This document shows, one piece after another, positions 1 through 18,030 of a stretch of DNA of 64,000 nucleotides (its first letter is position 1; each line of letters begins with the position of its first letter). The stretch spans positions 558,001-622,000 of the forward strand of contig JBBPFI010000009.1 of NCBI GenBank assembly GCA_037974965.1, given 5' to 3'. A model generated the notes under the pieces. It was not told the origin of the DNA. It did not search any database and saw only the letters and a list, made by a program, of their open reading frames with translations. The DNA is from Dacryopinax spathularia. Its lineage: Eukaryota > Basidiomycota > Dacrymycetes > Dacrymycetales > Dacrymycetaceae. Made by a program: the position numbers and the translations under genes.

Positions 1-2750
1 GTCGGTGCGGCCCTTCCCAAAGGAAGCAGCCAATCGGAGCACAACCCCCGGGGAACTCACGTTCAGTGATGTATGGGGGCCTGCCCGCAAGCCTGCCTTG
101 GGTGGCGCCAACTACTATATCTCCTTCACGGATGACGCTACTCGACGGTGCTCAGTCCTCTTCATGAGGGAGAAAGGACAAGCAGCCCAGCGCATCCAGA
201 CATACCTCACGTGGATTGAGCGCAAGCAAGGGAAACGTCCCAAGACGCTACACTGCGACAATGGCAAAGAGTACATCAACAAGACCGTCAAAGATTGGCT
301 TGAGGGGCATGGCATTGAGCTCCAGACCACGGCACCCTACTCCCCACCCCAGAACGGCATAGCAGAACGGTTCAACCGCACGCTAATTGAAGTTGCACGA
401 GCAATGCTTATTGCGAAGAAACTTCCAACAGCCCTATGGGCCGATGCAGTCCAGTATGCAGCATACATACGGAACAGGAGTCCAACGCGGGCCCTGCAAG
501 GCATGACCCCACATGAGGCATGGACCGGCAATAAGGCAGACGTGGGCCACCTACGAGAGTTTGGGAGTGATGTATGGATCCTCCAACAGGGAGAGTCCCG
601 CTCCAAACTTGCGCCCAAAACACGTCTTCACGTGTTTGTTGGCTTCGAGGATGGACCCAAAGCCGTCAAGTACTATGATCGGCAGACCAAGCAGATCAAG
701 ACATCACGCAACTACATCTTCGCGGACAGCCCAACCCCAGCACCTCTGGCTGAACCAGCTGCTGAGGGTACAACAACGCAGACCTTGCCGCTCGAGGGGG
801 AGACAGGGGGAGCTATGCAACCAAAGCGGCCTGAAGGCCTAGTCCTGCCAAGCAGAGACATTCCAACAGAGCCCGAGCTGCAATCTCCGCTCACTCCGGT
901 ACCCTCCAGCGAGAACACCCCCGCACCTTCACCAGAGCCTACCGGTCGACCAGCTAGATCCACTCGACGTGAAGTGGACTACCGTGCCCTTGCTGGCTAC
1001 CGTCCCCACCAGGATCAGAGCAACAGCGCAGTAGACGAATCTGTCACTGCTGACTACTGCTTCTTGATGACGGAGGATGATGTGCCAAGCACCATAGAAG
1101 AGGCAAAGGCGACGGCAGAGTGGCCTGAGTGGAAGAAGGCTATTGACAAGGAGATGAGCCAACTGGAGACAAAAGGCACGTGGACCATGGCTGAGCTACT
1201 GCCAGACCGGAAGGCCATTGGATGCCGATGGGTGTTTGCCCGCAAGTATGACGAGAACGGCAAAGTGGTCAAGCACAAGGGACGCCTTGTAGCCCAAGGC
1301 TTCTCGCAGAAACCTGGCGTTGACTACACCCACACCTACTTGCCAGTTGTCAGACTTGACTCCCTCCGCACACTCATCGCGCTAGCCACGCAACAGAAGA
1401 TGCACCTGGGGCAGATGGATGTCACCGGTGCATACCTGAATGGTGAGCTGGATGAGGAGATCTACAAGCGCCAAGCACCTGGCTTTGACGACGGTACCAG
1501 CCGTGTCTACCTCCTCAAGAAGGGCCTCTACGGCCTCAAGCAAGCCGGACGCCTCTGGAACAAGAAGCTTCATGAGGCTGTCACTCAACTCGGCTTCCAA
1601 CGTTCCGACGTGGAGCCTTGTGTCTATATCAGGAGGATTGGCGACAGACTCGCCATCTTCACTGTCTGGGTGGACGACTTCCTCATTGCCACCAACGATA
1701 TCCGCAAGATGACAAGAGTCAAAGAAGCGTTGAAACAACAGTTTCACATGAAGGACCTTGGCTCGCCCCGATACCTGGTTGGGATCAAGATCTCCCGCCA
1801 ACCTGATGGCAGCACGGCGCTCTCCCAGAGTAGCTATATTGAGACCATCCTCAAGCGCACTCGGATGGAGGCCGCCAATCCTGTCTCCACGCCTCTAGAC
1901 CCCAATGTCAAACTTGAGAAGAATACCGGCAACCCCGTTGACCCAGCACAATATGCAACAGCTATTGGTTCTCTCATGTATGCCGCCATTGGCACTCGAC
2001 CCGACATTGCATACACGGTTCAGCTGTTGAGTCAGTTCACAGCCAGCCCGTCAACTATGCACTGGAAGGCGGTCAAGCATGTCATGCGGTACCTCTCCGG
2101 CACCCGTGATTATGCTCTTGTATATGGTGGACCCGGCGACTTCAGCACCACGTTCACTGCCTTCACAGATGCTGATTGGGGCTCTGACTGAGATGATCGC
2201 AAGTCCATTTCCGGCAATGTCTTCCTTCTTGCTGGCGGCGCCATCTCCTGGGCCTCCAAGAAACAAACTTTAACCGCTCTTTCAACCTGTGAAGCGGAGT
2301 TCACTGCTGCTAATCTCGCTATGCGACAGGTGGTGTGGCTTCGCCAACTTCTTTCCGACCTTGGCTTCCCGCAAGCCAAGCCTTCCATTCTTTACTGCGA
2401 CAATCAGGCCGCTATCACTCTCTCTCTGGATCAACAGTTCCATGCCCGGACCAAACATTTCGACATCCAGAACCACTTCCTCCGAGACAAGGTCGATGAC
2501 AAGACTGTTACTGTGGAATACTGTCCAACCTCCGAGATGGTTGCAGACATTCTAACCAAGGCACTCGGTAGGCAGAAGTTCAAAGGATTTGTTTTGGACT
2601 TGGGTTTATTGGCAGGCTGAGGGGGAGTGTTGGCATACAAAGTGGTAGAGAGGCGCACAACGTGCGCCTCCGGGGTACTGTACAGTACCTCGCTTACATA
2701 AGCGTAGGGACGCGTCAGTCGCGCAAATTCTGCAGCCTGTCCAATGCATC
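1..2750 (+). mobile_element. Ty1/copia LTR retrotransposon, 3' part
   Basis: This is the right-hand part of a copia-type retroelement running off the left edge of the window. In order it shows an integrase core (about 60-700), a Ser/Pro-rich linker, a reverse transcriptase with the family's V-D-D active-site box (about 1080-1850), and RNase H (about 2070-2610). Integrase before reverse transcriptase marks Ty1/copia rather than Ty3/gypsy. A purine-rich tract at 2621-2627 is followed by TGTTGG, the usual start of a copia 3' LTR. The visible part looks broken, with about one break. Most of the coding region is still open, so the insertion is probably fairly young. It lies directly upstream of a FunK1 fragment on the same strand and probably landed in or beside that gene. 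The gag end and 5' LTR are outside the window. Confidence 0.92.
2628..2750 (+). repeat. Start of copia 3' LTR
   Basis: The sequence after the purine tract begins TGTTGG, as copia LTRs do. It holds a short inverted repeat (GAGGCGCAC / GTGCGCCTC, about 2650-2669). FunK1 homology starts within about 150 bp, so the LTR is either very short or cut off. Its right border is not visible because the other LTR lies outside the window; 2750 is an estimate. Confidence 0.5.
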
Positions 2751-2769
2751 TTTGTCCGTGCCATTACCT

Positions 2770-3247
2770 CTACACTGAATCCATATACTGGATCGCCATC
2801 TACCTCTCGTATAGCAGGCTCGTATACGCAAAAGGCGATTCTACCCTCAGCGACCAGAACCTTGTGAAACAGTTCGCAACAGCTCGCCTCCAACGTCGTT
2901 ACGCACTCTTCGAATGGCGCACACGGAAGTACAAATTTCTCAACGCAAATGGTATCTTGGGCAGTATACATCAAGAGTTGGACAAGGCTATAGCCTCAGA
3001 AGCGGGCGATTATATTCAAGACATGCAGGTCGAGCTGAAGAAGGCATATTTCGCATACGAAGCGAAATTCGCCGGTCCCGATAGGATTCCCTCGAATGAG
3101 TCCTTTTACGGGGTCTATGACGTCTTCGAGGAGCAGCTCCTAAATCTGAGCAACCTGTTCAAGGGCAAAATATGCGAACCGATCGATGCGTACAACGATC
3201 GAATACTGCAGGCGACAGCAGCTATATGGTCTTCCCAAGGTGTCTGA
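2770..3247 (+). pseudogene. FunK1 fungal kinase fragment, last exon only
   Basis: The frame resembles the C-terminal exon of the FunK1 kinases further right, starting at a match to their LESVYWIAVYLLYSKLV segment and running to a stop at 3245-3247. Its tail (SNESFYGVYDVFEEQL and LFKGKICEPID) is closest to the copy at 15163-16157, which has SNEAFFGLHEVFENEL and LFKGKICESID. The exon carrying HRD and the DLE motif is absent upstream, where the copia element now lies. It therefore cannot make an active kinase. I read it as a remnant whose 5' part was displaced or lost at the insertion. It occupies the outermost left position of the mirror-image FunK1/SNO1 arrangement around RPN9. Confidence 0.7.
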
Positions 3248-3989
3248 CCGCCGAAAGGGCCACGCCACGCCAGGTTCGAGTGACACTTTCTGGAGCCCTC
3301 GTTCCCATCCGTTTACAATGTGCTATACTTGACCTGCTGCGTGTTAATGGATTATGTAACATTGTAACATGACCGCTGCAAGGACTCTGCATCGTCCAAA
3401 GCCAGCTCGAGTACGAATGGTACAGAGCTGGATAACTCACTTCCAGCTGGCTGAATGAGCTCAGCGCGTCACAAACAGACAGCCGAAGCTTAGAAGGGGA
3501 TTGATGCATACCTGCCAAATTCGATTAGCCATACATCGGGCGTCAATCAGCCAGATCCAAAGGACATAGCTCGGCCGAGATGACAGACAACGGCTAAAGC
3601 GGGGGTGAGGAAACGTGACTCCCTTGTACCCGCGTTTTGGTTGAATGACGCGTCGTCATCCGATATTGACTCTTTTGACTCTTTGGGTTGCCCTGCACTT
3701 CCTGCTGTCTGGTGCGCTCTGGCTTCGTTTCTATGCTCAATTGAAGTGCACCGGAGGGTCTGTGAGGTCAGTGATTGACCCAGTGTCCCGTGGCTCATTC
3801 TGCTCATTCCCCACTTACAGAACGGCTTCAGCCGGCACCCCGGTGGATCTCTTGGGAATCACCGTGCTGCGCTCAGTGCGCCAGCAAAGTTTCATCAAAA
3901 CTGTGGCTGCTGCTACGTGACCGCTACCTGAACTACATAGCCTCGAACAAAAGGCGAAGTCAATGCGATAGCCTTGCCGTGCTGAACCT
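3248..3989. other. Intergenic, nothing recognised
   Basis: Between the FunK1 fragment and the next FunK1 gene. Only short overlapping frames without family resemblance are present. No kinase N-lobe remnant could be recognised. Confidence 0.6.
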
Positions 3990-4976
3990 ATGACATCTAG
4001 CACATTCGAATGGTCCACGATCCCCCCTTCGTTTGCAACCGTGCTCTCCACATCGAGCGATCGTGCCCGCATCCACTATCGAACTTTGATGGAAGATGTC
4101 GGGCTACCATTGGACGAAGTAGCAAGCCTGGAGATAGCTTTCTCAGCGCTAGCTGACGTCGCGCACGGTTAGTAGTCTTTGGCCAGCCATACGAAGAAAT
4201 GCCGAGACATATCTTGTAGCTTGCAAGCTGCTGTGTCAAGCTGGATATAACCATCGCGATCTCTCCTGCAGGAACATAGTGGTCGAGGAGGACAATGGAG
4301 AAGGTCGACTGGGCGACCTCGAATTTGTGCGTTCGCATGAAGATGGCTCAATCGAGCACGACATACCCAAGGCAAGCGCTGTTCACCTCTCCCACGTACT
4401 TTGTCTATCTTACACAATTGGTAGAGAACGCGAGAGTTTATGGCACTCGAAGCGTTGGATCAGAGATACTGTTTCGGACAGGAAGGCGCCGATGTACCAA
4501 TGGGCGATCTTCCAGTCCGACACAACGCGGGTCACGACCTAGAGTCGATTCTCTGGATTGCCGTTTTCATGCTGTATAATTCGCTCGTCTTCGACATAGG
4601 AGATGGGCTGGCCTCCGAAGAGTTCCTCAAACGGCTGACTGATACACATGTTCATGAACGAGCGCGAATCCTCGATTATAGGCAACGAAGCATGATATTC
4701 GGTTCTCCGGGGCTTGCAAGTCTCCTGAAGAGGCATACCAAGAGCCGAGCCGCGGCGATGACATACAAGCAACTCGACATAATGGAACTTGCCCTCAAAC
4801 TGAAGTATAAGCAGTTTGACGCCAACCTCAGTGATGCCGACCACGGTGAAAGCCGTAATCATGAATTCCTTCCAGTGCACCACATCTTCGAGCGAACACT
4901 CCGGACCATGAGCGGCCTGTTCAAGGGCAAGATATTCATCTATATCGGTACAGGCAAATGGACGCCATCAGATTAG
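3990..4976 (+). CDS. Short FunK1-type protein kinase (catalytic half only)
   Basis: Three exons, 3990-4167, 4220-4371 and 4425-4976, give 293 residues. Exon 1 carries the helix RIHYRTLMEDVG. Exon 2 carries the catalytic loop HRDLSCRNI and the GDLEF motif, where DFG is replaced by D-L-E. Exon 3 carries the VRHNAGHDLESILWIAVF block and a C-tail ending LFKGKIFIYIG. The middle exon is exactly 152 nt, as in three other FunK1 genes here. The second intron opens with GC rather than GT (AAG|GCAAGC). The kinase N-lobe, with the lysine strand, is missing and the frame is closed just upstream of the ATG, so the gene begins mid-kinase. FunK1 is a fungal-specific kinase family of mostly unknown substrates. 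The protein may be a regulator, an inactive relic or the product of a missed longer gene. It is convergent with SNO1. Confidence 0.75.
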
Positions 4977-5291
4977 GAGAACAACGAGGGGTCGCAAGCG
5001 TCACAGAAGCTCTCGATGGGTGGGGAGAAACCACTGTACTGTCGTGATACCGAAGAGCTCCCCATAGAGGACTTGTATATCTAACCTGATACGTGGGCGA
5101 GACAATTCGCCAGAAATCTGTGGAGTTTCTTGGGGCTCGGAAACAGTGACCTGTGCGCGGAGCAGGCGTTGTCGTGTTGGTGTATACCGTTGAGGTGTGC
5201 AGACAGCGGCAGGAATGAAACGAATCCAATCTATGACATATAATATACAACAATATCCCCCTCCCATCAGTCTAAGGGTATCTCCATCCAT
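4977..5291. other. Convergent intergenic spacer
   Basis: Holds the 3' ends of the short FunK1 gene (+) and SNO1 (-). Nothing else recognised. Confidence 0.6.
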
Positions 5292-6179
5292 CTATTTGCT
5301 CTCCGGCAATCCCAACACACATCTCCTGACAAAGTACTCGTGCAGCCTCTCGTCCTTGGTCAGCTCCGGATGGAACGTAGTCACGAACTTCCGGCCTTGG
5401 CGGAGTGCGACGACAGTGTAGTCTTTCTCTCCCTTTGCGGCTTCTTCTTGTAGCTCGGAGGGGAGGCAGGATGTAGGGACGCGGGCGACGATCTCCGTCG
5501 GGATGGAGGAGGAGGATGGGGCGGTCGGCTCGACATGCTCGATTATCTGTGCCGATGTTAGCACCCCCACACGGCGAATGATACATAATGGGGAAATACA
5601 TACCGGTGCACGTATAAAGACACCAGCAAACGGCCTCTCCGGTTCCCTCAGCGCCGGGATATCCAGCATGACCTCAAACGACTCCAACTGTCCCTCTTAC
5701 ATCAGCTCACGTCCCGCCTCCAGCCCAGCAATCTGCGCACCTGCGTCCCATACCCATTCCTCCGCACCGTCACGCCCATCCCGCCAAACAGCTCCTGCCC
5801 ACCCTTCTTCAGCCCCGTCGCTTCCCTCGCCAGGAGGATACAGCCCGCACATGTCCCCCAGACGGGCTTTTCGGGGTCTTGGCAGTATGATTTCAGGAGG
5901 TCGAGCATCCCCGTCCTAGCTGCGACGGAGGCGATGGTTGTGCTCTCCCCACCCGGAATTATGAGGGCGGCGCATTGGGCTAGGTCTTGTGGTGTTCGAA
6001 CGAGAAGAGGGTGGACGGTGTGCCCTCGCAGCTTTAGGCGGGAGAGAATGGATTGATGTTCTACGAAGGCGCCTTGGAGCGCTACGTTGCACGTCTGAAT
6101 TAGTGCAGGTTCGTTCTGGGTGAGACGAGGGCATACCGAGCACGCCGATGACGAGAGGTTCCGGGGTATCACCGGACAT
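5292..6179 (-). CDS. SNO1: Pyridoxal 5'-phosphate synthase glutaminase subunit (SNO1/PdxT)
   Basis: Four exons, 6137-6179, 5741-6081, 5604-5687 and 5292-5546, encode 240 residues, close to the family length. The protein releases ammonia from glutamine for the PLP synthase SNZ1/PdxS in DXP-independent vitamin B6 synthesis in the cytosol. The start VIGVLALQGAF is diagnostic and is created across the first intron. The PGGESTT oxyanion loop is at 57-63, the nucleophile in WGTCAG is Cys92, and the FHPEL box supplies His215 and Glu217, completing the glutamine amidotransferase triad. A stretch after IIEHV (about 163-175) is Ser/Pro-rich and expanded compared with bacterial PdxT. The partner SNZ1 is not in the window. 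A decayed second copy lies at 8750-9250 in the opposite orientation. Confidence 0.95.
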
Positions 6180-6962
6180 CGCTACGTCTATGGCTGGAAT
6201 ATGGCCACTGGCCAACCAAGCCGATGAGGAGGCTGTCAGAAGAAGAGATGGGAGCAGCCGCCGACGTTGATAGTCTGTTCCGCGGGTCAACCGACCGTCG
6301 GCAACTTTTCGTCGGTCGTGCGCGCCGCAAAATACCGGTCCCTGGCGATGTCTCACATGAATGGCATGGCATGTCTATGACGAGTACATTGGGACAAAAA
6401 TGGTTTGCAAATACCTGTTTACCCACTTTACACCGAAAGCCTCCCAGTTGCATGCAACTGTGGTACTATGCAGCAAGCAACTCTGGTATCCCTCATAGTG
6501 CCCGGCTCTCCCTGCACTTCCCCTAATCTCCCCTAATCTCCCCTAATCTACCTGACACCTATTTGGGACGCAGCACTGATGGATAACTCATTTGTCACCC
6601 CAATTTTGACGTGCCCTATGACAAACCCAAGGGCTGAGCACAAAACTAAATTTTTGACGGTGAAACATAGGGCAAGAGAGGGCAGAAAACAATAATGGAA
6701 CTTGAGGGAAAATAGTGCACGACATAAGGAGAATTGATGCATATGCGAGCATATCCGCGCAGCTCAGGGTAAGTGCGGGCTGATGCGGGTTGATGCGGGC
6801 AAGTCAGTGGAAATCAATTTCGATTTTGCGGAAACTGAATTATGTCCCATCCTACTCGTCATACATGTCAAATACTAAGTACTGTTGGCATGAACAGCAA
6901 GCGTACAATCAATGAGGCTAGAAATGCACATTGTTGTCTACCAACTACCGGTACAGCGTGTA
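6180..6962. other. Intergenic, SNO1 promoter side and RPN9 3' side
   Basis: No gene recognised. It is locally AT-rich around 6590-6720, and contains the 10-bp tandem repeat listed separately and a few copies of TGATGCGGG near 6780-6800. Confidence 0.6.
6519..6550. repeat. Three tandem 10-bp units, telomere-like
   Basis: Three direct copies of CCCTAATCTC in a row. The complementary strand reads TTAGGGG once per unit, so the array resembles a degenerate interstitial telomeric repeat or a cluster of TTAGGG-factor sites. It lies about 340 bp upstream of the SNO1 start. Confidence 0.8.
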
Positions 6963-8350
6963 CTAGACAGTAACACCCGCAAACAATTCTTGACTGGCAA
7001 CAAAGTGCTCCACCTTGCCGAGCCGGTCGGTCCAGTCCCGCAACCGACCAGCTAGCTGGTCGATCTGCTCCCTGCCCAGGACGCGCGGCTGCACCCAGGA
7101 GATATGTGCTTGCTCGGAGACTTGGTCCAGTGTACCACGGATGAGCTTCAGGCTGCGAGGTAAGGTCAATAAGCTGTCCTAAGCCAGAGTGAGGAAGCCG
7201 AACGCACCTGAGCGCCTTCATTACAAGATGCTCGACCTCATCCTGCGGCAACCGTGTCTCCTCCGCAATCGTCTGAAAGCTAATCGGCCGCTCCTTGTCC
7301 TTCCTCCCCTTCCTCTGGAACACAGTCTCGATCAACGCCATCAGGCAGATCTTTTGTCTTAGGAACTGGTGGTTCATCGCTAGTATAGGTTCCCGGCCGA
7401 ACTGGGTCGCGAGGACTTCGAACTTGCCGATGTTGCCGCTGTTGAACACGAAGAGCAGGTCTCGTAGCCATTCGTGTTGCGACCCAGTTAGAGAGTCAAG
7501 GATAGGGTGCATGAGGAGCTCGCCGAAGTTGTAGATCGTATCGCCAAGCAGGGCGGCGATGGCGAGGTCGTGTGCTCGGGCAAGGCGTTCTTCGGGGGAA
7601 AGGTCGATATCGGGGTTGATGCAGGCAAGGTAGAGGAGGGAGTTTTTGTAGTAGGGTCCGTACTCGGCTTTTGCCTGAGCGCAATGGGATCAGGTCAGGA
7701 CATCAGGAGGAGCATGAAGATGGCTGACTTTGTAGTAATCGGCAGCGACACGATAGAATGCAGCATTCACACCACCTTCCACACTGTCCAACGAGTCCAG
7801 CACCTCCTCGCATTTGTCCACATCGGCCTTCGTACCCTCCAGATCCCCGAACAGCAGCTTCACCTGCGCAAGCGTAGACAACAGAAGTATATGCGCTTCA
7901 GGTGAAGTCTCGATGTTGATCCGGGCAAGGAGGGAGGTAAGCAGGCCAAGCGTCCGTTGCGGGTCTAATGGCTATTATCAGCAAGTCGGTCATGGTATGA
8001 TTCGTTCATCTCGCTCACCCTCTATTTGACGGCATACTTTCACACCCATCTCAGCCAGCCGGAGCTGGTTGATCTTCCCCTCGAAGTCTCGCACGAACCG
8101 GTTGAACAGATCCACCTGGTATGGCCTGGAGTCTGGATGTGACAGGAACTCGTTCACCGCGAGCGTTAGCTGATGCCATCGCCTACACAACACGATTAGC
8201 AAGCAAAGAAAGTACAAGCTATGAGGAGACATACTTTTGGTCGTATAGTGTCCGGAAGCGCTGGAAGTACGGGTGAAGGGATGGCGGGGAGTTATTCAGC
8301 GCATCCTCTAAGTACACATCCACTCGGTGTTCGACGTCCATAGCTGACAT
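6963..8350 (-). CDS. RPN9: 26S proteasome lid subunit Rpn9 (PSMD13)
   Basis: Five exons, 8235-8350, 8019-8182, 7729-7964, 7208-7674 and 6963-7152, give 390 residues, matching the usual 390 or so of Rpn9. Rpn9 is a PCI-domain scaffold of the regulatory-particle lid. The N-terminal two thirds are helical repeats (RWHQLTLAVNEFL, LLFGDLEGTKADVDKCEEVL). The C-terminal PCI domain includes ARAHDLAIAALLGDTIYNFG, FQTIAEETRLPQDEVEHL and a winged-helix end leading to SWVQPRVL. Two in-frame ATGs three codons apart are possible; the upstream one, giving MSAMDVEH, was chosen. The intron after exon 3 uses a weak GTCAGC donor. This single conserved gene sits at the centre of the mirror-image FunK1/SNO1 arrangement. 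Confidence 0.95.
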
Positions 8351-8749
8351 CGCGAATGATATGCGTAGAAGAGGTTGTAGAAGAGGTTGGCAGAGGGTAT
8401 TGAGAGGATGTATGCGCTGATGGAATGCACGAACGCGGTTGGGCAGTGGGACGCGTAACTACACCAAAGAAGCAGGGTGGCGCCTCAGATGCTTGGTGGC
8501 TGTGTTTCTGTTTCTGGGCGCTTCGCAGGAGGGAGGGTTCGTTGTTCTCCTTCCGCGGCACCATGCAGCGCCGTCGGAGTTGGTGTCTTGCTCTTTGACT
8601 CGTTGCACGCTATTGGTATCGTATGCGCGTCCTAGTACAGTAACATGTGTCTGAGCTTGACTCAAAGCTGCTTCTGCGCCTTATCATGACCCCGGCTTCT
8701 CCGTCATCCCCACTGCTGGCGTCTACCTGGAAACTCCTGATTATTCATC
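8351..8749. other. Intergenic, RPN9 upstream region
   Basis: Probable RPN9 promoter side. A GGTGGC core occurs near 8476, but the full proteasome-associated control element is not matched. No gene recognised. Confidence 0.5.
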
Positions 8750-9250
8750 TGACCTTTGGAAGACCACAGGGCTAGGCTTATGTCCTCTTTCCGAGGCCGC
8801 GTACACCTCGAAATTCGCCTTGGTTCAGTTGCCTCATAGCAACTCATGTCTGGGATATGAGTTGGTTTACGAGGGAATGTTAGAGTGGTTTGGGTTCATG
8901 GTGGATATCCCGGCGCTGAGCCAACTGGAGAGACGGTTTGCTGGCGTCCTTACACGACTCGAGCTCCTGCGCGACGGCCCGTGTCGTATGTCATCCTTCT
9001 GGACCTCCGCAATACCCAGCGACGTCGGCGCAGATGATCGAGCACGTCGAGCTCACCGCTCCATCCTCCTCGTCCTTCCCAACTGAGGGCGCTGCTCGCG
9101 TGCCACTATACGCCTCCTTCCGAGCTACAGGAAGATCGATCCACGGGAGAGACAGGACAGGAAGTTCGTCGTTGCTGAAGGACGAGAGGCCTATATGGGT
9201 GCTTTGTGCGGAGACGTGTACTGGGATTGTCGGAGGCCAAATGCAAGGGA
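8750..9250 (+). pseudogene. Decayed second copy of SNO1, C-terminal half
   Basis: From 8881 the sequence parallels SNO1 exon 3, its third intron and exon 4. Shared segments include VDIPALSQLERRFAGVL (SNO1: LDIPALREPERPFAGVF), MIEHVELTAPSSSS (SNO1: IIEHVEPTAPSSSS) and KDERP near the end. Weaker similarity reaches back to about 8750, where a TGG...GGGCT stretch corresponds to the WGTCAG region but has no cysteine. The segment that should carry the FHPEL box is largely deleted, and the aligned parts fall in different frames. No functional amidotransferase could be made. The copy is inverted relative to SNO1 and, like SNO1, faces a FunK1 gene tail to tail, which supports one shared duplication event. 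Confidence 0.85.
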
Positions 9251-9605
9251 CAGGTACTCGCTTTGGCCTATTGGGATGGGAGACTGATGTAGTAGATCAG
9301 GTGTCTCTATCTGAGCACACGTTACCGTACATCGCACCTCGTGCTCGACTTGTTAATCATTCCGCTTTTGAAAGTCTTTCCGCCTAAATACAGTATCATG
9401 GTCTTCAGGTCGTTCCTTCACAGCAGGAATCTGTGACGAGCAAGACAGCCATTTGAACGCGCACGGTTCCCTGTCCAAGACGAGGTTAGGGGAGCGATCT
9501 CTGGGTCCCTCCCCCGCCCTGCACTTGCGTTCCGGGAATATACGATCGTTAGGGTATCAAGATGTTACGTATACATGCAAGATTGGTATGTATAGCCACG
9601 TCACG
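9251..9605. other. Convergent spacer between SNO1 relic and FunK1
   Basis: Nothing recognised. It does not visibly match the equivalent spacer at 4977-5291. Confidence 0.5.
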
Positions 9606-12140
9606 TCAAGCACCGCGCATGGCAAGCTTTTGACGTGCAGCCGAGAGCTTCTGTCGTTTAGGGGGCTGTGACGTGTCGCCACCCTCTTGACCGTCGTGCT
9701 TTCTGCCGATGTATACGAACGTTTTGTCCTTGAAGAGGCCGCTTATTTCCCTGAGGGTGTCTTCGAAGACGCCGTGAAGAGGGAGGAATTCAAGGTTACG
9801 GGTTTCACCTTGGTCTGCATCACTGAGCTTGGCTTCGAACTCCCTGTATTTGCTCTTGAGGGCGAGTTCGATCTTGTCGATGAACTTGTAAGCCATAATG
9901 GCAGCGCGGTTTGTGGTATGCTTCTTAATGAGATTTGCGAGTCCGGGAGGACCGAACACTGTGCTGCGCTTCTGATAATCGAAGATTTGAGCTCGTTCCA
10001 TGGCCCGCGCATCCCCCAGTTGCTTGAGGTCCTCTTCAGAGGGCGATTTCTCGCCCGCGTCGAAGACAAGAGAGTTGTAGAGCATGAAGGCGGCAATCCA
10101 GAGGATGGATTCCAGGTCATGACCGGCGTTATGTCGAACTGGAAGATCGGCCGCCGGGGCATCGGCACCTTCTTGCGCGAAAGAATACCTTTGGACCAAT
10201 ATCTCGAGGGCCATGAAATCGGGAGTGCCCTATCGAATCAATGAGGACGAAGAATACAGAAGACACGAAACGGTGCATACGGTCCGCATGTTGTGCCCAC
10301 CGGAGTTGCTGCCGTGCAACTTCGCAAATTCAAGGTCACCCAATCGACCCTGTACATTATCCTCGTCGACAATTATGTTTCCGCACGAAAGGTCGCGATG
10401 GTTATAGCCGGCTTGGCACATTAGTTTGCACGCTATAACGTAGCCATCAGCATTGTCTCGAATGGTTGACAAATTCTCGCTGACCATGCGTGACGTCAGC
10501 CAGCGCTGAGAATGCTATGTCTAGCCTTTCCACTTCATGGAGTGGCACACCAACGTCAACCATCACAGTCCGATGATGTATCCGCGCATGAATGGCGGGT
10601 TCGTTCGAAGTGGGATTGGCTTCCGTTTGGCCGGCAGTCAACCTCACGAGCCCGCCGGCGCTGGGCATGTGTGCCCCATATCTGTCGTCCACCACTTCAG
10701 GCTGGTTCAGCTTGGCATCGAGATACTCCCAGCCTTCTTCAAGGGTGCCTTGATAGCCAAGAATCGCCCTCGTATCGTCGAGATGGCCGCCTTCAAGCGT
10801 CACGTCTTCGCTCGCGCTCATCTTTACGAAATATTCCCTTGCAGGACGGGCCGCTGCGCCTGGACTGGGAAGAGAGGTTTGGCCTGATCCCTTCGCTTCC
10901 TGCGTCTCGATCGCTTTCATGACTCGATCATATATGGCGAATTCAGATTCTCGGTGCTCGTCCCGCCATATATCCTTGATGACCACTCGCTTCATTGTCT
11001 TCCCCTTCTTGTTATCATCGTCCGTGCTTTCAGGCTGACGCGCGTCCTCGTTCACCAGGAGTGCATCGTACACGCGACACCCACTGCCGATGAGAGCCCG
11101 CGCTCGATAGTCTGCGAGGATGTCCACCAGCAAGTATCTCTTGTTGGCAATTACGACCTTGTACGGCTCATCGCCGAGCCTAATTATCGTGGGATCTCGA
11201 CCCAAGGCAACGTCCTCGCCATAAGCGAAAAAGGCCAACGCCCGAAAGAGGCTCCTTCGGTCCTGTTGCCTCGGTCAGCAATCGAACCGTGCAACATGGT
11301 ACCACCACGTACCTTGTTCACTTCGAACGGCTTGCTGACGAACACGGCTGACCGACACGCAATCCATAGTCGTGCTTCAATCCCTTCTACCGTCATGCCG
11401 ACGGAAAAGCGGCGGTCGAGGTTGTCCCACAGCATATGCTGCATGTTCCACATCTCCTGCTGCGCGTTCTGCGAATGGGGTTAAGACGGCTGCAGAGATC
11501 CTGGAGAGTCGGGGCGACATACCTCGAGGCCCATCTCGTAGAATAAGGTCCTGAAGTTCTTGATCTTGAACTCAAAGACGGCGATGATGTAGCGCCATCT
11601 GTAAAAATCGCTGACATCCTTGTCCTCCCCTTCGTATCTCACCAAGGTGGTGGCGTCCGGCTTGCTTGTGTTGATCTTGTTCTCGGATGGTGGAGTATAC
11701 CTCTCGCGAGATACATAGGTCCGGGCTGGTACGTGAACCGTGCCAATACCCCATCGTTCGCACGTGCTCTTGACGTGATCGTGCAGCTCCTCCAGGTGGT
11801 CGTAGATGCTTTTCTCGGTGAGGTCCTTCAGCGCTTCCCCATTTGGGTCAAAGCAGGCGTCCAGGGCGTCCCACACGCTACCTTTCAGAAACTCACTATT
11901 GGTCCGCAGCCTGGTCATATGCCGATCGAGCCATCCGGGAAGGACGAACAACTTCTCCATGTGCTCAAGGGGGACGACCCAAACCCCAACTTCCTCCATC
12001 ATGATCTCTCGCTTGCTTTTCAGATGCGGATTGTTGCTGAATTGTGGCTGCGACGTTGACTTCGCGCGATTATGCGGTGTGGTGAGACTGTCCTGAGAAA
12101 TCGGCTGGCGACCAGGGGGGGTCTGCGGCGGGTGCGACAT
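9606..12140 (-). CDS. Full-length FunK1-type fungal protein kinase
   Basis: Five exons, 11523-12140, 11313-11468, 10485-11262, 10281-10432 and 9606-10229, encode 775 residues. The N-terminal third is a FunK1-type helical region (MEEVGVWVVPLEHM near the start; RWRYIIAVFEFK near its end). A candidate catalytic lysine is in RVVIKDIW near residue 354. Exon 4 has HRDLSCGNI, with the catalytic Asp and metal-binding Asn, and GDLEFAK where DFG would stand. Exon 5 has VRHNAGHDLESILWIAAF and ends with a basic PPKRQKL stretch that could be a nuclear signal. FunK1 kinases are expanded in mushroom-forming fungi; targets and pathways are mostly unknown. This is the only copy in the window with an N-lobe and the likely reference for the shorter ones. 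Downstream, tail to tail, lies the SNO1 relic. Confidence 0.88.
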
Positions 12141-13352
12141 TGTTCAGTCTGGAGGGAGGGAATAGTAGACTGGACGGCATAACGCACCGATATCGCCCAA
12201 GATTTATACCCTGGGTTATGCTTGCACTTGGTCTTTGTTCGACTGGAGTAGCCCGTCTGCAAGCGGCAGTTGAACACGGCGCTGAATGCGCGGCGCAAAG
12301 GATCCTTGGCCTTCCGAAGCGAGTGCTACGGTGTCGCTTACTGACCAACAAAAGCCATCCTGATGAGCATATGTGCCACCCAAACAAAACCGGTAGAACC
12401 CTGTCAAGCAGTTCCTCGGACCAACGGACCGCTCTCGATAGCAAGAAGCCTGCGACCTGGAAGAAAGGAAACCAGGAGGCGAAATTACGGACGCGTCCAC
12501 AAAGACTTTGACTCGGAGACGCGTCGAGTTGCACCGCCACGGCATGTGATCGGCACATGATGTTGCCATGACGGCCGTTTAGGAGGCCTCCATGTCCCAG
12601 AGCACGACTGTATTCTTTCAATGCTCAATCAGTCACGATAACTATGATGGTCGTGGTCACTTTTCACGAAGAGCGGCCCCGACATACCCATGGTGGTTCT
12701 TCTGTCGTCAAGAAGGTGACAGCATGAAACCGCAGCCCACAACCGAGATGACTCCTTAGCGGGCCGCACTTCGCTTATCGCTTTGTGCAAGCCGTCACCT
12801 TTTGTCTGCTCTGTACCACCCAAGGCTTCCGCCCCTAACTGATGTCTATGGTCGCAAACCTTGCCGCCCTGAGCCGAATGAACACCATCAGGAAGCTCTA
12901 TTGTTCAGGACCTTTCGTTGTCATCTGGCGTGGAAGTCATGGCGGGAGAGTTTCAGCTTCAGCCCCGTATCTTGCCGACGTGATCTCCTGTTTCAAGTCC
13001 TCGGCAGTAATGTATACCAAGCGTACGCTGAAAGTCTTTTGTCAAAGACACGGACTCGCCTAGCCGAGTTGCCGCGCCATGGTCCACCAATACAGCGGCT
13101 GGAGAGCGAAGGGAGTGAAATGTTGAGATGTACATTGCCTCGTGACACTATGCGAAGCTGGTCGGGCGGCAGCCTGGGTCATTTTCCATTCTTATTATTC
13201 CTATATTTCGGGCTGACATTGTTTGGATATTGAACTGTTGGATATACGCGTCCTCTCCATGGGGGTTTCAGAATCTCACGCCTGCCGCTCTGCACCTCCA
13301 GTTGAGAGCTTAGACTGTGTACACTTTCTGGTTCATCTTGTGCCTCCTATCC
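12141..13352. other. Intergenic, nothing recognised
   Basis: About 1.2 kb upstream of the full-length FunK1 gene and downstream of the next one. No conserved frame, repeat or RNA gene was recognised. Confidence 0.55.
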
Positions 13353-14316
13353 TCATGATCTCGCTCTGCTTGGACCAATATATATGAACGTCTTGCCCTT
13401 GAATAGACTGCTCATAGCCCTGAGGGTATCCTCGAAGACGTGGTGCGCCGGAAGGAATTCGTGGTTACGGGTCTCGCCTCGGTCCGTCTCACTGAGTTTG
13501 GCTTCGAATTTCTTGTATTCGTTCTTGAGAGCCACTTCCATTTGGTCTATGTAATCCTCGGCAAGAACCACGGCTCGATTCGCTTTGTCTTTACAGAGGA
13601 TCCCGGCAAGCCCGCCAGGTCCGGAGAATATCTCACTTCGCCGCCCATAGTTGAAGAGCTTGTTCCTCTGCACGGCCCAGGCAATTGCTGATTGTTTGAC
13701 TGCCTCAACCGAGATGTTCCCGGCATTCGCATCGAAGACCAGGGAATTGTACAGCGTAAATACGGCGATCCAGAGAATCGACTCGAGATCGTGGCCGGCG
13801 TTGTGGCGCACGGAGAATTTGAGTTGAGGAGCTTTGCGATGCCAGTCGCCAAAGTAATATCTGTCGAGCAGCACTTCAAGCGCCATGAAGTCGGGCGTTC
13901 CCTGCCAAGATGGTTTAGCCGGGTACAAGCAAACATCACCATAGGATACGTACCGACCGTATGTTGTGCCCGCTTGCTTGCATACCGTGCAACTTTGCGA
14001 ATTCGAGGTCGCCTAATCGGCCCTCGCCCTTGATCTCGTCCACTATGATGTTCCCGCAGGAAAGATCACGGTGATTATATCCAGATTGACAAAGCAGTTT
14101 GCAAGCTACAGTATATCTGTCAGCATTTCTTCATATGGCTGGCAAAGACTACTGACCATGGGCGATGTCCGCTAGTGCTGAGAAGGCGCTTTCCAGGCTC
14201 GACACTTCGTCCAAGGAGAGTCCCACGTTCTCCATAACAGCTCGATAGTGGATGAGATTCCGGTGCATCAGGATGGAGGACACAGCTTTATACGAAGCAG
14301 TGGCATGTGCAGGCAT
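13353..14316 (-). CDS. Short FunK1-type protein kinase (catalytic half only)
   Basis: Three exons, 14157-14316, 13954-14105 and 13353-13901, give 286 residues. Exon 1 starts MPAHATASYKAV, preceded in frame by a stop, and enters the family at LIHYRAVMENVGLSLDEV. Exon 2 has HRDLSCGNI and GDLEFAK, both intact. Exon 3 has VRHNAGHDLESILWIAVF and ends LFKGKTFIYIG. Exon phases and the 152-nt middle exon match the full-length gene at 9606-12140. The N-lobe with the lysine strand is missing. Frame and splice sites are preserved, which argues against old decay, but ATP binding as in a normal kinase is not expected. It could be a short paralogue acting in trans, or a recent truncated duplicate. Confidence 0.75.
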
Positions 14317-15162
14317 TCAAGTTCGGACGTGCTCGAAATTCAGGTTCGGTTCAATCCTCGCAGCTGAGCACGGCTAATGCATATCTTGCCGCTCTGTCCG
14401 ACGGTCATTCAGCCCCAAGGCACCCAGCAGCAAGGAGAGAAGAGCACCCAGTTATCTCCTAGAAGATGTGTGGCTACGGAGGGTGTCGATTCCCAAGTGC
14501 TTCAATGACTGCTGACTCCGAGTCGGAACTCGTTTTGGGCCTGCGTAATGTGCGCAACAACCAAGAGGGCAATCGGTCTGGGCAGATAACTTGCTGGCTT
14601 GTGGCGGCTTCACAAGCAAAAGAGGCTCCTTCACACTTCAGGTGAATAGTGGTGAAGAGAGACCGGGGAAAACTGCAGCAGTCGCAGAGACCCAAGAGTG
14701 TACAGTCCCAAAAAGGCAGAAACGCGACGCGTCATCCCACCATATTCGGGGGACGCGTCTACACGGTCCAGTCACTTTCACCACCCCACCTTGAGTACTT
14801 CGAGCCGTTGTCTGTCATACTGTGCAACTTAGCTATGCCTTTCGAATGACTGGTGGATTCGCCCGCTCCGTGGCATCAGCTAACCGAATATGGTGTATTT
14901 TCGAACCAAAATCCCTCAAGACAATATGGGCTTAGCGACGCACTCGGAGTTGCTCAACGGGCTCTGCGCGACGCAGACTCTTATCCTAAACGGTCACTTT
15001 CCAATTTATGTAACTAAATCCATCAACACATCGCAAGGTCAACATAGAAAGTTGTCAAGGGATGTCAAGGAGTGTTCAGCAAATATCGCTCAAACCTGGC
15101 GTAGGCGTTTCGGCAGTGAGACGTGTCGGGAGACTTGTTGACCGTCGTCCTCTTTGCAAGAA
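14317..15162. other. Intergenic, nothing recognised
   Basis: Lies between two FunK1 genes on the same strand. No kinase N-lobe remnant or other conserved frame was recognised. Confidence 0.55.
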
Positions 15163-16157
15163 TCAAGCGTCGTACTCATCGATTGATTCGCATATCTTGC
15201 CCTTGAACAGCTCGCTAAGAGTTACGAGCTCGTTCTCAAAGACTTCATGGAGTCCGAAAAAGGCCTCATTTGATGGCATGTAGTCGGGACCATTGAATTG
15301 TGCTTCATATTTGGCGTACGCCTTCTTGAGCTGGAGCTCTATCCGTTGAATACATCCGGAGGCTCGCTTGGCTATAGAGCCATCCAATTGTCCCCTCATC
15401 TTGCGTGGGATGACGTTCGTACCCGGGAAGTCAGAGTTTCGTGTAGCCCAATCGAACAGGTTGTGGCGAGCTCGTTTGCGACTTGTCGCTAGCTCCTTCA
15501 CAGCCTCCATATCGACCTCTGAAGGATCGTTTGGCTCAAATACCAGCTTGCTGTACAAGAGATAGACGGCGATCCAGTATACCGATTCAAGATCATGGCC
15601 GGCATTATGTCGCACGGGAGGCAGGTTGTCGTCGTCGTCAAGAGCGCAGTCCTCCGGCGTGAAAAGATACACCTGCTTGGCTATCTCAACAGCGACGAAA
15701 TCAGGCGTTCCCTGGCGAAAGTAAGAAATCTGTCCCAACGATGCCAGAAAACCCGTACCGTGCGGCCATGGTGCCCGCCTTGACTGCTCGCGTGCTTCTT
15801 CGCGGACTCCATGTCGCCGAAATAGCCCCGTTTGGTGCGCTCGTCCATTAACATGCTGCCGGGAGATACATCTCGATGATCCCAGCCAGCTGAGCACATC
15901 AGCCTGCAAGCTGGAGCATCTTGTTAGGCCTTGCAGAGATAGGCTGATAGCTGCTCACCGTGCACGACGTCAGCCAACGCTAGGAATGCGACCCCCGGAT
16001 GACCAACTTCGTTTAATGGAACCCCTACATCCTCCATCAGAGTTCGATAGTGGACGCGATTATGGTCGATCGCTGTGATGAACACATTCTCCGTAGAAGA
16101 AGGTAGGCACGCAGCCATCCGGACGTTCGGCTTGCCTCGAGGTGGGTGCATATGCAT
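15163..16157 (-). CDS. Short, divergent FunK1-type pseudokinase candidate
   Basis: Three exons, 15959-16157, 15759-15910 and 15163-15711, encode 299 residues with the same phases and 152-nt middle exon as its neighbours. Exon 1 includes KPNVRMAACLPSS before VHYRTLMEDVGVPLNEV. The catalytic loop is HRDVSPGSM: the Asp is kept, but the metal-binding Asn of HRDLSCGN is replaced by Ser. The GDLEFAK motif has become GDMESAK. Exon 3 keeps VRHNAGHDLESVYWIAVY and ends LFKGKICESIDEYDA, closest to the fragment at 2770-3247. The N-lobe is missing. With both metal-site motifs altered this is best called a pseudokinase candidate, although the frame is intact. It is the outermost right member of the mirror-image arrangement. 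Confidence 0.72.
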
Positions 16158-16889
16158 GCTATGCGGCCTAGACGGTGGTCATCGCCGAGGCCGGCTAGTA
16201 CGGCGGGCCCAAAAAGGACTGAACTGCCGGGCGGAGACAACGAATGTCGACGAGCACGACACACGACGCGGGAAACCTTTGCAGCCGGCTCTCATCCAGA
16301 CCTTATTGCGACAACGAGCTAGAATCATGCTTCTATGGGCGACGGAAGACCTCCAGAGGCTCGTCGCTGTTGTTTGATGTCTTACGCCAGGAGGATGACT
16401 GGGCGAACAAAAGGCCACCAGTGGGCGTACAGCCACTGAGGTTGCTTCTTCTGTCCGAAGACCAGGAAGCGCCCACGAGAGGTTCTGGCGCTCTTGGCCA
16501 TTGCCCTTATTGTCTGCTCGCTGCGCAAGCTAACATTAGCACAAGCATGCGCTCGATTGGCTTACTGGCCACTGTTGTCTTTGAGCATCCATGCCATCGT
16601 CAATGGTCGTACGATCGACTCACTCGACCGGCTCGTTGTCGACGCTGGCCATTCTTAAGCCAGCCAACTTGAAGGCCATGCCCCTAACCTCCATCGCCTC
16701 TAACTCCATCTCACTGGCGGTTGAGCGCCCCTCTCCCCCCCTCTTATACTATCAGGCCCCATCCCCCCTCGAAGTGCTTGACGCACACACTCTTTTGCTG
16801 GTGCCGGCACCTTCCCCCTCGCTCAACCTGCCCTCTCGCTCCGCCTACTATCGACACTTACCCATCCATACCTAACCGTACACCTTTCG
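16158..16889. other. Intergenic, promoter side of the membrane-protein gene
   Basis: The last 200 bases are pyrimidine-rich, with a TATA-like CTTATACTAT at about 16743, as expected for a basidiomycete promoter and leader. Nothing else recognised. Confidence 0.55.
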
Positions 16890-18030
16890 ATGTCTCCCTT
16901 CAAGATGCTCGCAAGCGTGAAGGAGACCGCATACAAGTACTTCCTGTTCAATGGTATGCCACCGCCGTTACTGCCGTTGTACTAGTCGGCTAACTGTACC
17001 CAGCTGTGCGCTTCCTCAGCATCGTCACCCTGCTTCTCGTCTTCAGCTCGAACATCCTCGTCATGTATCAGTACGTTCTCCATTTCCTTCCACCGACATC
17101 ATCTCATAGAACCACAGGGACATTCAAGCTATTCGAGATGCTGGCTCGTCGTCTTCCGATCCCACCTCGAACTCGAACTCGACTGCGTCGATGGGCACGG
17201 ACGAATACGTCGAATGTGACTACCTGGAGTACTCAACCGTCCCAAATCAGCCAGCTGGTGCCTTCTGGGCGATCCTCAACCGCCTCTTCATCCTGTTCCA
17301 GTGCATCATTCTCCTCTGGTCGGAGCTCGGCTTTTACGACTGGGTACTCAAGGAGTACATGCCGATTCTCGGACCAGACTTCGGTGTTTGGACACTCGGG
17401 GCGATGCAGTGCATGATCAGTGCTGTCGTCCTCTCTCATCAGTGAGTGCCTCCACCAATCTCCGTTCATACGAGCTCCTGACATCAAATTCGTAGCGTCG
17501 ACGAGTTCCCGCTCGTATCCGCCTTCTTCCTCTTCGCCATAGGCTGTTTGAACATCATCATCGGTCTGGTCTTCCGTGCAAAGATGAAGCAAGAACGTAT
17601 ACTGTTCAACTTCGTCGGCAAGACAAAGTCGACCCTCAAGTCTGGGGCCAGCTCGCTCCTGCCCAAGTTCGAGAGCGACGATGGCAACTACCCGGCGGAG
17701 AAACCAGCTTTCCTCTCCGGTCTGAAGGGCAAGATCTCCAATCCTATTCGGAACAGTCAAAGCATCGCCGAAACGGGCAGCTATGGCTATTCAGGCATGC
17801 CAGGGCCGGATTGGGGTTTCGGGCGACAAGGCCAGAAGAAGGCGGAGTATCAGGGTGAGCGATAATCATGAGGCGTGCGCGCAACGTCGGCTGACAGCGA
17901 GGTGACAGGCGCCGTGCTCGCTGAGCCGCCGGCCAGTCTACCGAAGTACGCCGGCTCGCCTCCTGGGTCTCCCACAGGTCAGAAGGCTGCCATCGACGCT
18001 GTCTGGCAGTACAAGACCGATAGGATATGA
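16890..18030 (+). CDS. Four-pass membrane protein, DUF7598-like
   Basis: Five exons, 16890-16953, 17004-17070, 17118-17441, 17496-17854 and 17909-18030, give 311 residues. Four hydrophobic segments are visible: LSIVTLLLVFSSNILVMY (about 25-42), a second around ILFQCIILLWSELGFY, a third around LGAMQCMISAVVLSH, and VSAFFLFAIGCLNIIIGLVF. A polar, Gly/Ser-rich cytosolic-type tail of about 110 residues follows. No catalytic motif is seen. The layout fits a basidiomycete family annotated DUF7598; that family name is from memory of the pattern. Function is unknown. Splice phases and length are consistent throughout, so the model is sound even if the role is not known. Confidence 0.75.

Follow-up and report, generated by a model that had tools for sequence, protein, structure and literature searches.

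We analysed a window of 64,000 nucleotides from the fungus Dacryopinax spathularia (assembly GCA_037974965.1, contig JBBPFI010000009.1, positions 558,001 to 622,000 of the forward strand; all positions below are those of the window), in which five genes or gene fragments of the fungal kinase family FunK1, named F1 to F5, and two copies of SNO1 stand in mirrored order on the two sides of RPN9. The window has a G+C content of 55% and introns of about 50 bp, and the look of the DNA is fungal. The eight named genes were all present on the strands given in the initial annotation, and the C-terminal tails, open reading frames (ORFs), Pfam matches and protein identities all bore out the gene order and the two FunK1 types, A and B, that it had called around RPN9. 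The features are the following:

1-2774, + strand: 3' part of a Ty1/copia retrotransposon (Pfam RVT_2 and rve), which interrupts F1.
2777-3247, + strand: F1, 3' fragment of a type B FunK1, tail FKGKICEPID, mirror of F5.
3248-3989, no strand: spacer between the B and A genes and F2 promoter, mirror of 14317-15162, with the palindrome GACGCGTC at 3647.
3990-4976, + strand: F2, 5'-truncated type A FunK1 of 293 amino acids (aa) in three exons, tail FKGKIFIYIG, positional mirror of F4.
6179-5292, - strand: SNO1, a PdxT-type glutaminase subunit, apparently intact (Pfam SNO).
5235-5740, - strand: the part of SNO1, with 3' flank, that has a copy in the right arm, identified by a high-scoring segment pair (HSP) and a global alignment score.
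About 8350-6963, - strand: RPN9, a subunit of the 26S proteasome lid, in the spacer, its ends taken from ORFs.
8827-9305, + strand: SNO1 relic (about 8852-9242), a 3' half, with its 3' flank.
12140-9606, - strand: F3, full-length type A FunK1 of 775 aa in five exons, tail FKDKTFVYIG, with no left counterpart.
9306-13236, - strand: asymmetric segment, F3 and its upstream DNA, the gap between two inverted HSPs.
14316-13353, - strand: F4, 5'-truncated type A FunK1 of 286 aa, tail FKGKTFIYIG, positional mirror of F2.
14317-15162, no strand: F4 promoter and spacer between the A and B genes, mirror of 3248-3989, with GACGCGTC at 14726 and 14752.
16157-15163, - strand: F5, 5'-truncated type B FunK1 of 299 aa, tail FKGKICESID, mirror of F1.
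3647, 12490, 12518, 14726, 14752, 2709, 30773 and 42002: exact matches to GACGCGTC.

The Pfam search took in eight proteins of the locus. The FunK1 profile PF17667 (Pkinase_fungal, curated cut-off 24.1 bits) matched F3 with 155 bits, F2 with 65.7, F4 with 73.7 and F5 with 71.3. Only F3 carries the full domain including the N-lobe (positions 7-386 of 387, 3e-45), and the other three match its C-terminal third (263-386 for F2 and F5, 262-385 for F4). F1 matched no Pfam family at E 0.01, since it starts where PF17667 ends, and it is called FunK1 because of its identity to F5 (70/141 aa). RPN9 was recognized by PSD13_N (8.5e-32) and PCI (4.5e-06) on the stretch 6871-7689. For the left SNO1, one exon matched SNO (PF01174) at 2.3e-29, and 14 PDB sequences were found at E 0.001 or better, the best being PdxT (1.8e-30); the gene carries both GTCAG, with the nucleophile Cys, and the FHPE motif, which have catalytic roles in these enzymes.

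The two arms were compared by permissive blastn (left arm 2700-6400, right arm 8381-17000, E 1), which returned seven HSPs, all inverted and two of them long and collinear, and no same-strand HSP between the arms. The longest one joins 2776-5085 to 15589-13237 (2441 columns, 61.7%, E 5e-175) and crosses the coding sequence of F1/F5 with its 3' flank, the entire spacer, and then F2/F4 from promoter to 3' flank, with three exons and two introns. The second joins 5235-5715 to 9305-8852 (64.4%, E 3.7e-42) and comprises the 3' half of SNO1 along with the DNA past its stop. As a control, the left arm reversed but not complemented gave a single 30-bp match (E 0.097). Global alignment of 2776-5090 with the reverse complement of 13230-15591 scored 555.5, whereas 32 stretches taken from elsewhere in the window averaged -155 (standard deviation, sd, 31) and reached -98.5 at most. 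For the SNO1 block the score was 137.5, and none of 132 controls exceeded -20.5; the per-segment identities of 0.66-0.86 in these global alignments are inflated by free gaps. Because the scores lie far outside those of the control stretches, the symmetry of B gene, spacer and A gene is not a coincidence.

Noncoding DNA takes part in the collinear homology as well, with a spacer of about 740 bp plus flanks. The spacer alone scored 1040 against a shuffle mean of 515 (sd 31, z 16.9), and the noncoding 3' flank of F1 aligned with the right arm at z 12.9. The inverted segmental duplication with RPN9 as spacer that the initial annotation had proposed is thus well supported, by collinear inverted blocks that include noncoding DNA. 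The outer end of the left arm lies beyond view, as the copia insertion sets its edge and the window begins within the copia element. Further FunK1 or SNO1 pieces were not found elsewhere in the window by tblastn at E<=10, the best match (E 0.013, 25% over 143 columns, at about 44.3-44.7 kb) falling in an unrelated open frame, and 2001-17000 had no blastn match at E 0.001 to the rest of the window. A search for an outgroup found no relative in viral contigs (0/45 pattern matches confirmed) or in prokaryote genome contigs (0/17), and no published description of the locus was found among titles and abstract openings.

In order to establish which copies pair, we used distance-based quartets with 300 bootstraps, taking F5 as outgroup for the A genes. 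On the exon 3 tail, B grouped with B and A with A in 300/300 bootstraps in each of the three quartets tested, in agreement with the pairing of left and right copies that had been predicted. For the left A gene, F2, the alignment with F4 continues as a single stretch from the promoter across the exons and introns into the 3' flank. The upstream region of F2 aligned with that of F4 at z 12.0 in a loose scheme and 20.5 in a strict one, and with that of F3 at z 2.8 (1/200 shuffles) and -0.4, respectively. For the 3' flank of F2, five comparisons with F4 yielded z values between 2.9 and 5.1, and those with F3 yielded 1.1 and -1.9 (2.0 and 2.2 with the F3 coding extension added). Intron 1 is identical at 43/51 positions between F2 (4168-4219) and F4 (14106-14156), above the flanking exons (78/106 and 107/152), for which conversion or constraint are the candidate readings. 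Position, promoter, truncation point, intron 1 and 3' flank support F4 as the partner of F2, an assignment contested by one coding segment. The initial annotation had instead paired F2 with the full-length F3, which is slightly closer to it over the whole coding sequence but is not its counterpart by position, promoter, truncation or 3' flank. One extra A gene does break the symmetry on the right, as had been noted; since the positional partner of F2 is F4, however, the asymmetric gene is F3.

F3 and its upstream DNA make up a right-hand segment of 3931 bp (9306-13236) that faces about 149 bp on the left (5086-5234), between the two inverted blocks. As the four-fold distance between F3 and F4 exceeds that between F2 and F4 (given below), F3 may have belonged to the ancestral block and disappeared from the left arm, or may be a later arrival on the right.

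The right-hand SNO1 is a relic, as had been claimed, but it consists only of the 3' half and flank. Its start lies at or within the intron that precedes the final two exons, and it still has one complete intron and a portion of a second, which indicates that it was copied as DNA and not via RNA. The 5' half of SNO1 was undetectable beside RPN9 on the right (z 0.6; local score 13, where controls averaged 11.6 and reached up to 18), and for this reason a duplication breakpoint inside SNO1 would be the simplest reading, simpler than the decay of a full copy that had been suggested; a later deletion would be the alternative. Lacking both the nucleophile half and the FHPE segment, the relic should not work as a glutaminase.

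At the left edge, the copia polyprotein is open apart from one in-frame TGA near 2190. The part preceding this stop matched RVT_2 (1.8e-68) and rve (9.2e-14), with rve at 15-115 placed before RVT_2 at 393-632, the domain order of Ty1/copia elements. The 3' long terminal repeat (LTR), read by eye, lies at about 2628-2774 (about 147 bp, TGTTG...CTACA) and the 5' LTR beyond the window. The homology of F1 to F5 begins at 2776-2777, that is, at the end of the LTR, and F1 is still open for 156 codons. The insertion looks recent, given this open frame and the single in-frame stop in the visible part of the element. The initial annotation had placed the truncations after the duplication, and the left B gene was indeed cut later, by this retrotransposon. 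The truncation of the A genes, in contrast, is common to F2 and F4, so that the truncations were not one late process.

The duplication itself is old, judging from the four-fold sites, about half of which differ: 14/28 between F1 and F5, 37/71 between F2 and F4, 46/80 between F2 and F3 and 53/77 between F3 and F4. The four-fold divergence of the two mirror pairs is the same. Synonymous divergence (dS) by the NG86 method was 0.71 (0.50-1.08) for F1-F5, 1.29 (0.94-2.03) for F2-F4 and 1.37 (1.06-2.42) for F2-F3, and was saturated for F3-F4.

An old inverted segmental duplication very probably explains the locus as a whole. The copied block would have reached from the middle of SNO1 across the 3' end of that gene to a type A FunK1, already truncated at its 5' end, and a type B FunK1. 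Its copy would have come to lie, inverted, beyond RPN9, so that RPN9 and the 5' half of SNO1 would form the spacer. The left SNO1 would then have stayed whole while the partial copy decayed, and F2/F4 and F1/F5 would be the mirror pairs that resulted. F3 would either have been present in both arms and lost from the left one, or have been inserted later on the right, and the Ty1/copia element would have landed in F1 afterwards. From the present arrangement we infer that a single event was responsible, as well as when it took place, which arm was the source and by what mechanism (either template switching or fold-back replication) it arose.

Several observations weigh against this history. The dS values of the two mirror pairs differ, with intervals that barely overlap. 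F2 is closer in protein sequence to F3 (178/287) than to F4 (160/281), the F3-F4 value being 166/279, and the quartet F2F3|F4F5 wins on the coding sequence (188/300), on third positions (194), on first and second positions (161) and on the genomic alignment (223). Finally, the spacer between F2 and SNO1 does not align with that between F3 and the relic (z 0.5; 1.1 and -1.9), except for about 60 bp beside SNO1.

The affinity of F2 changes along the gene. From exon 1 to exon 2 it groups with F4 (261/300), and from intron 2 to exon 3b with F3 (279/300); a maximum chi-square test including the introns placed the switch near 4278, with F3-like sequence beyond the break (1/2000 permutations). A conversion tract inside F2 or F4 is possible. 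More generally, F2 or F4 could be a recombinant, either through such a tract or because the two A genes of the left arm collapsed by unequal exchange, which we consider a serious possibility though somewhat on the doubtful side. When the test was confined to coding sites, the best break moved to 4871 and had the opposite sense (45/2000), exon 3c favoured F3F4|F2F5 (224/300) and the sites polarised by F5 were almost evenly split (34/29/24), all of which speak against it. We rejected one form of this explanation, in which unequal exchange in the left arm simply fused an F4-like 5' part to an F3-like 3' part: such a fusion would not lead one to expect the F4-like 3' flank that F2 has, and the coding-only test also counters it. 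Only an internal conversion tract is retained as a possibility.

A direct duplication in tandem, after which one copy was inverted together with RPN9, would lead to the same end state, and one genome cannot tell the two routes apart; as it requires two events, we regard it as unlikely. It is less probable still that F2 mirrors the full-length F3, with F4 as a later tandem extra. The protein identities and the quartets of the whole coding sequence and of intron 2 to exon 3b favour such a pairing, but the promoter and 3' flank of F2, which match F4 as do its truncation point and intron 1, already put it under strain, and the quartet of exon 1, intron 1 and exon 2 (261/300) opposes it; at four-fold sites F2 differs from F4 at 37/71 and from F3 at 46/80. 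That the FunK1 genes and the SNO1 fragment came separately and are symmetrical by coincidence is scarcely credible: FunK1 families do expand by lineage-specific duplication, as Desjardins et al. (PMC3203195) describe for Paracoccidioides and Coccidioides, but the collinear homology across the noncoding spacer and flanks refutes a separate arrival for the B-spacer-A block and leaves it open for F3.

No remnant of N-lobe coding sequence was detectable upstream of F2, F4 and F5 (z 0.2, 1.0 and -0.7). As the truncation is common to F2 and F4, the A genes would most simply have lost the N-lobe before the duplication. Both are open reading frames with predicted introns, and the ratio of nonsynonymous to synonymous divergence (dN/dS) was 0.26 (0.16-0.39) for F2-F4 and 0.58 (0.34-0.92) for F1-F5. 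The C-lobe parts of F2 and F4 appear, as predicted proteins, to have been kept since the duplication. The catalytic HRD...N motif reads HRDLSCRN in F2, HRDLSCGN in F3 and F4 and HRDVSPGS in F5, and the region is absent from the F1 fragment. With Ser in place of the catalytic-loop Asn (15759-15910), F5 would probably be a pseudokinase even leaving aside its missing N-lobe. The second intron of F2 (4372-4424) would be GC-AG, and the same intron is GT-AG in F3 and F4. An AlphaFold2 model from a four-row C-lobe alignment had a mean predicted local distance difference test score of 55.3 and a predicted template-modelling score of 0.60. Used as a Foldseek query, it gave 211 matches at E<=10, none at 0.001 or below and the best at 0.22, with mostly kinases among the best 50 of 211; the predicted fold adds nothing firm.

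The palindrome GACGCGTC occurs eight times in the window as an exact match, compared with 1.45 expected, and 0/100 shuffles reached eight. Five of the eight copies lie within 600 bp upstream of type A genes (F2 at -343; F3 at -385 and -357; F4 at -443 and -417), which was equalled by 1/100000 random interval triples; the motif was picked after inspection, so these odds overstate the case. Among the 256 palindromic 8-mers it is the sole one that occurs more than once in the A upstream regions, and the other 8-mers found in all three of these regions are ACGCGTCG, which overlaps it, and CATTCAGC. Allowing one mismatch there was no enrichment in the window (37 against 36.3 expected), and the ACGCGT core was slightly enriched there (19 against 13.6, with 3/100 shuffles as high). 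There is no copy upstream of F5, and one copy lies inside the copia LTR. The motif may be common to F2 and F4 by descent; the upstream region of F3 aligns poorly with theirs. The ACGCGT core is the MluI cell-cycle box of yeasts, and MluI-box regulation of the type A FunK1 genes is a candidate.

The rearrangement itself is ordinary genome turnover, and old; it is the half-kinases and their common motif that deserve a second look. A mirrored FunK1 pair in one locus is useful for asking whether copies without an N-lobe are debris or working protein, and GACGCGTC may tie this little understood group of fungal kinases to control of the cell cycle. As a tentative suggestion, which we hold to be doubtful, the F2/F4 lineage could consist of maintained half-kinases with a C-lobe only, which would have lost the N-lobe before the duplication, kept open frames under purifying selection in both arms and, sharing the promoter motif with F3, possibly been switched on together with it as its regulators or decoys.

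Compared with the FunK1 family, F3 covers the profile nearly end to end, and F2, F4 and F5 its C-terminal third, the C-lobe being, according to Desjardins et al. (PMC3203195), where the homology of the FunK1 domain to ordinary kinases mainly lies. A Fusarium graminearum study (PMC6001611) describes a conserved FunK1 gene that is upregulated during sexual development. The locus differs from the family in that three of its five copies (F2, F4 and F5) are without the N-lobe, the 5' part of F1 being out of view behind the copia element, and in that its copies stand as mirror pairs, an arrangement not found in the excerpts of the FunK1 literature examined. In comparison with the SNO/PdxT family, the left SNO1 matches PF01174 and PdxT chains, whereas the right copy is a 3' half. 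Like other ancient inverted segmental duplications, this one has two collinear blocks of opposite orientation that flank a unique spacer. Its identity of about 62%, however, is far under the 90% that is the usual cut-off for recent segmental duplications, which makes it a decayed one.

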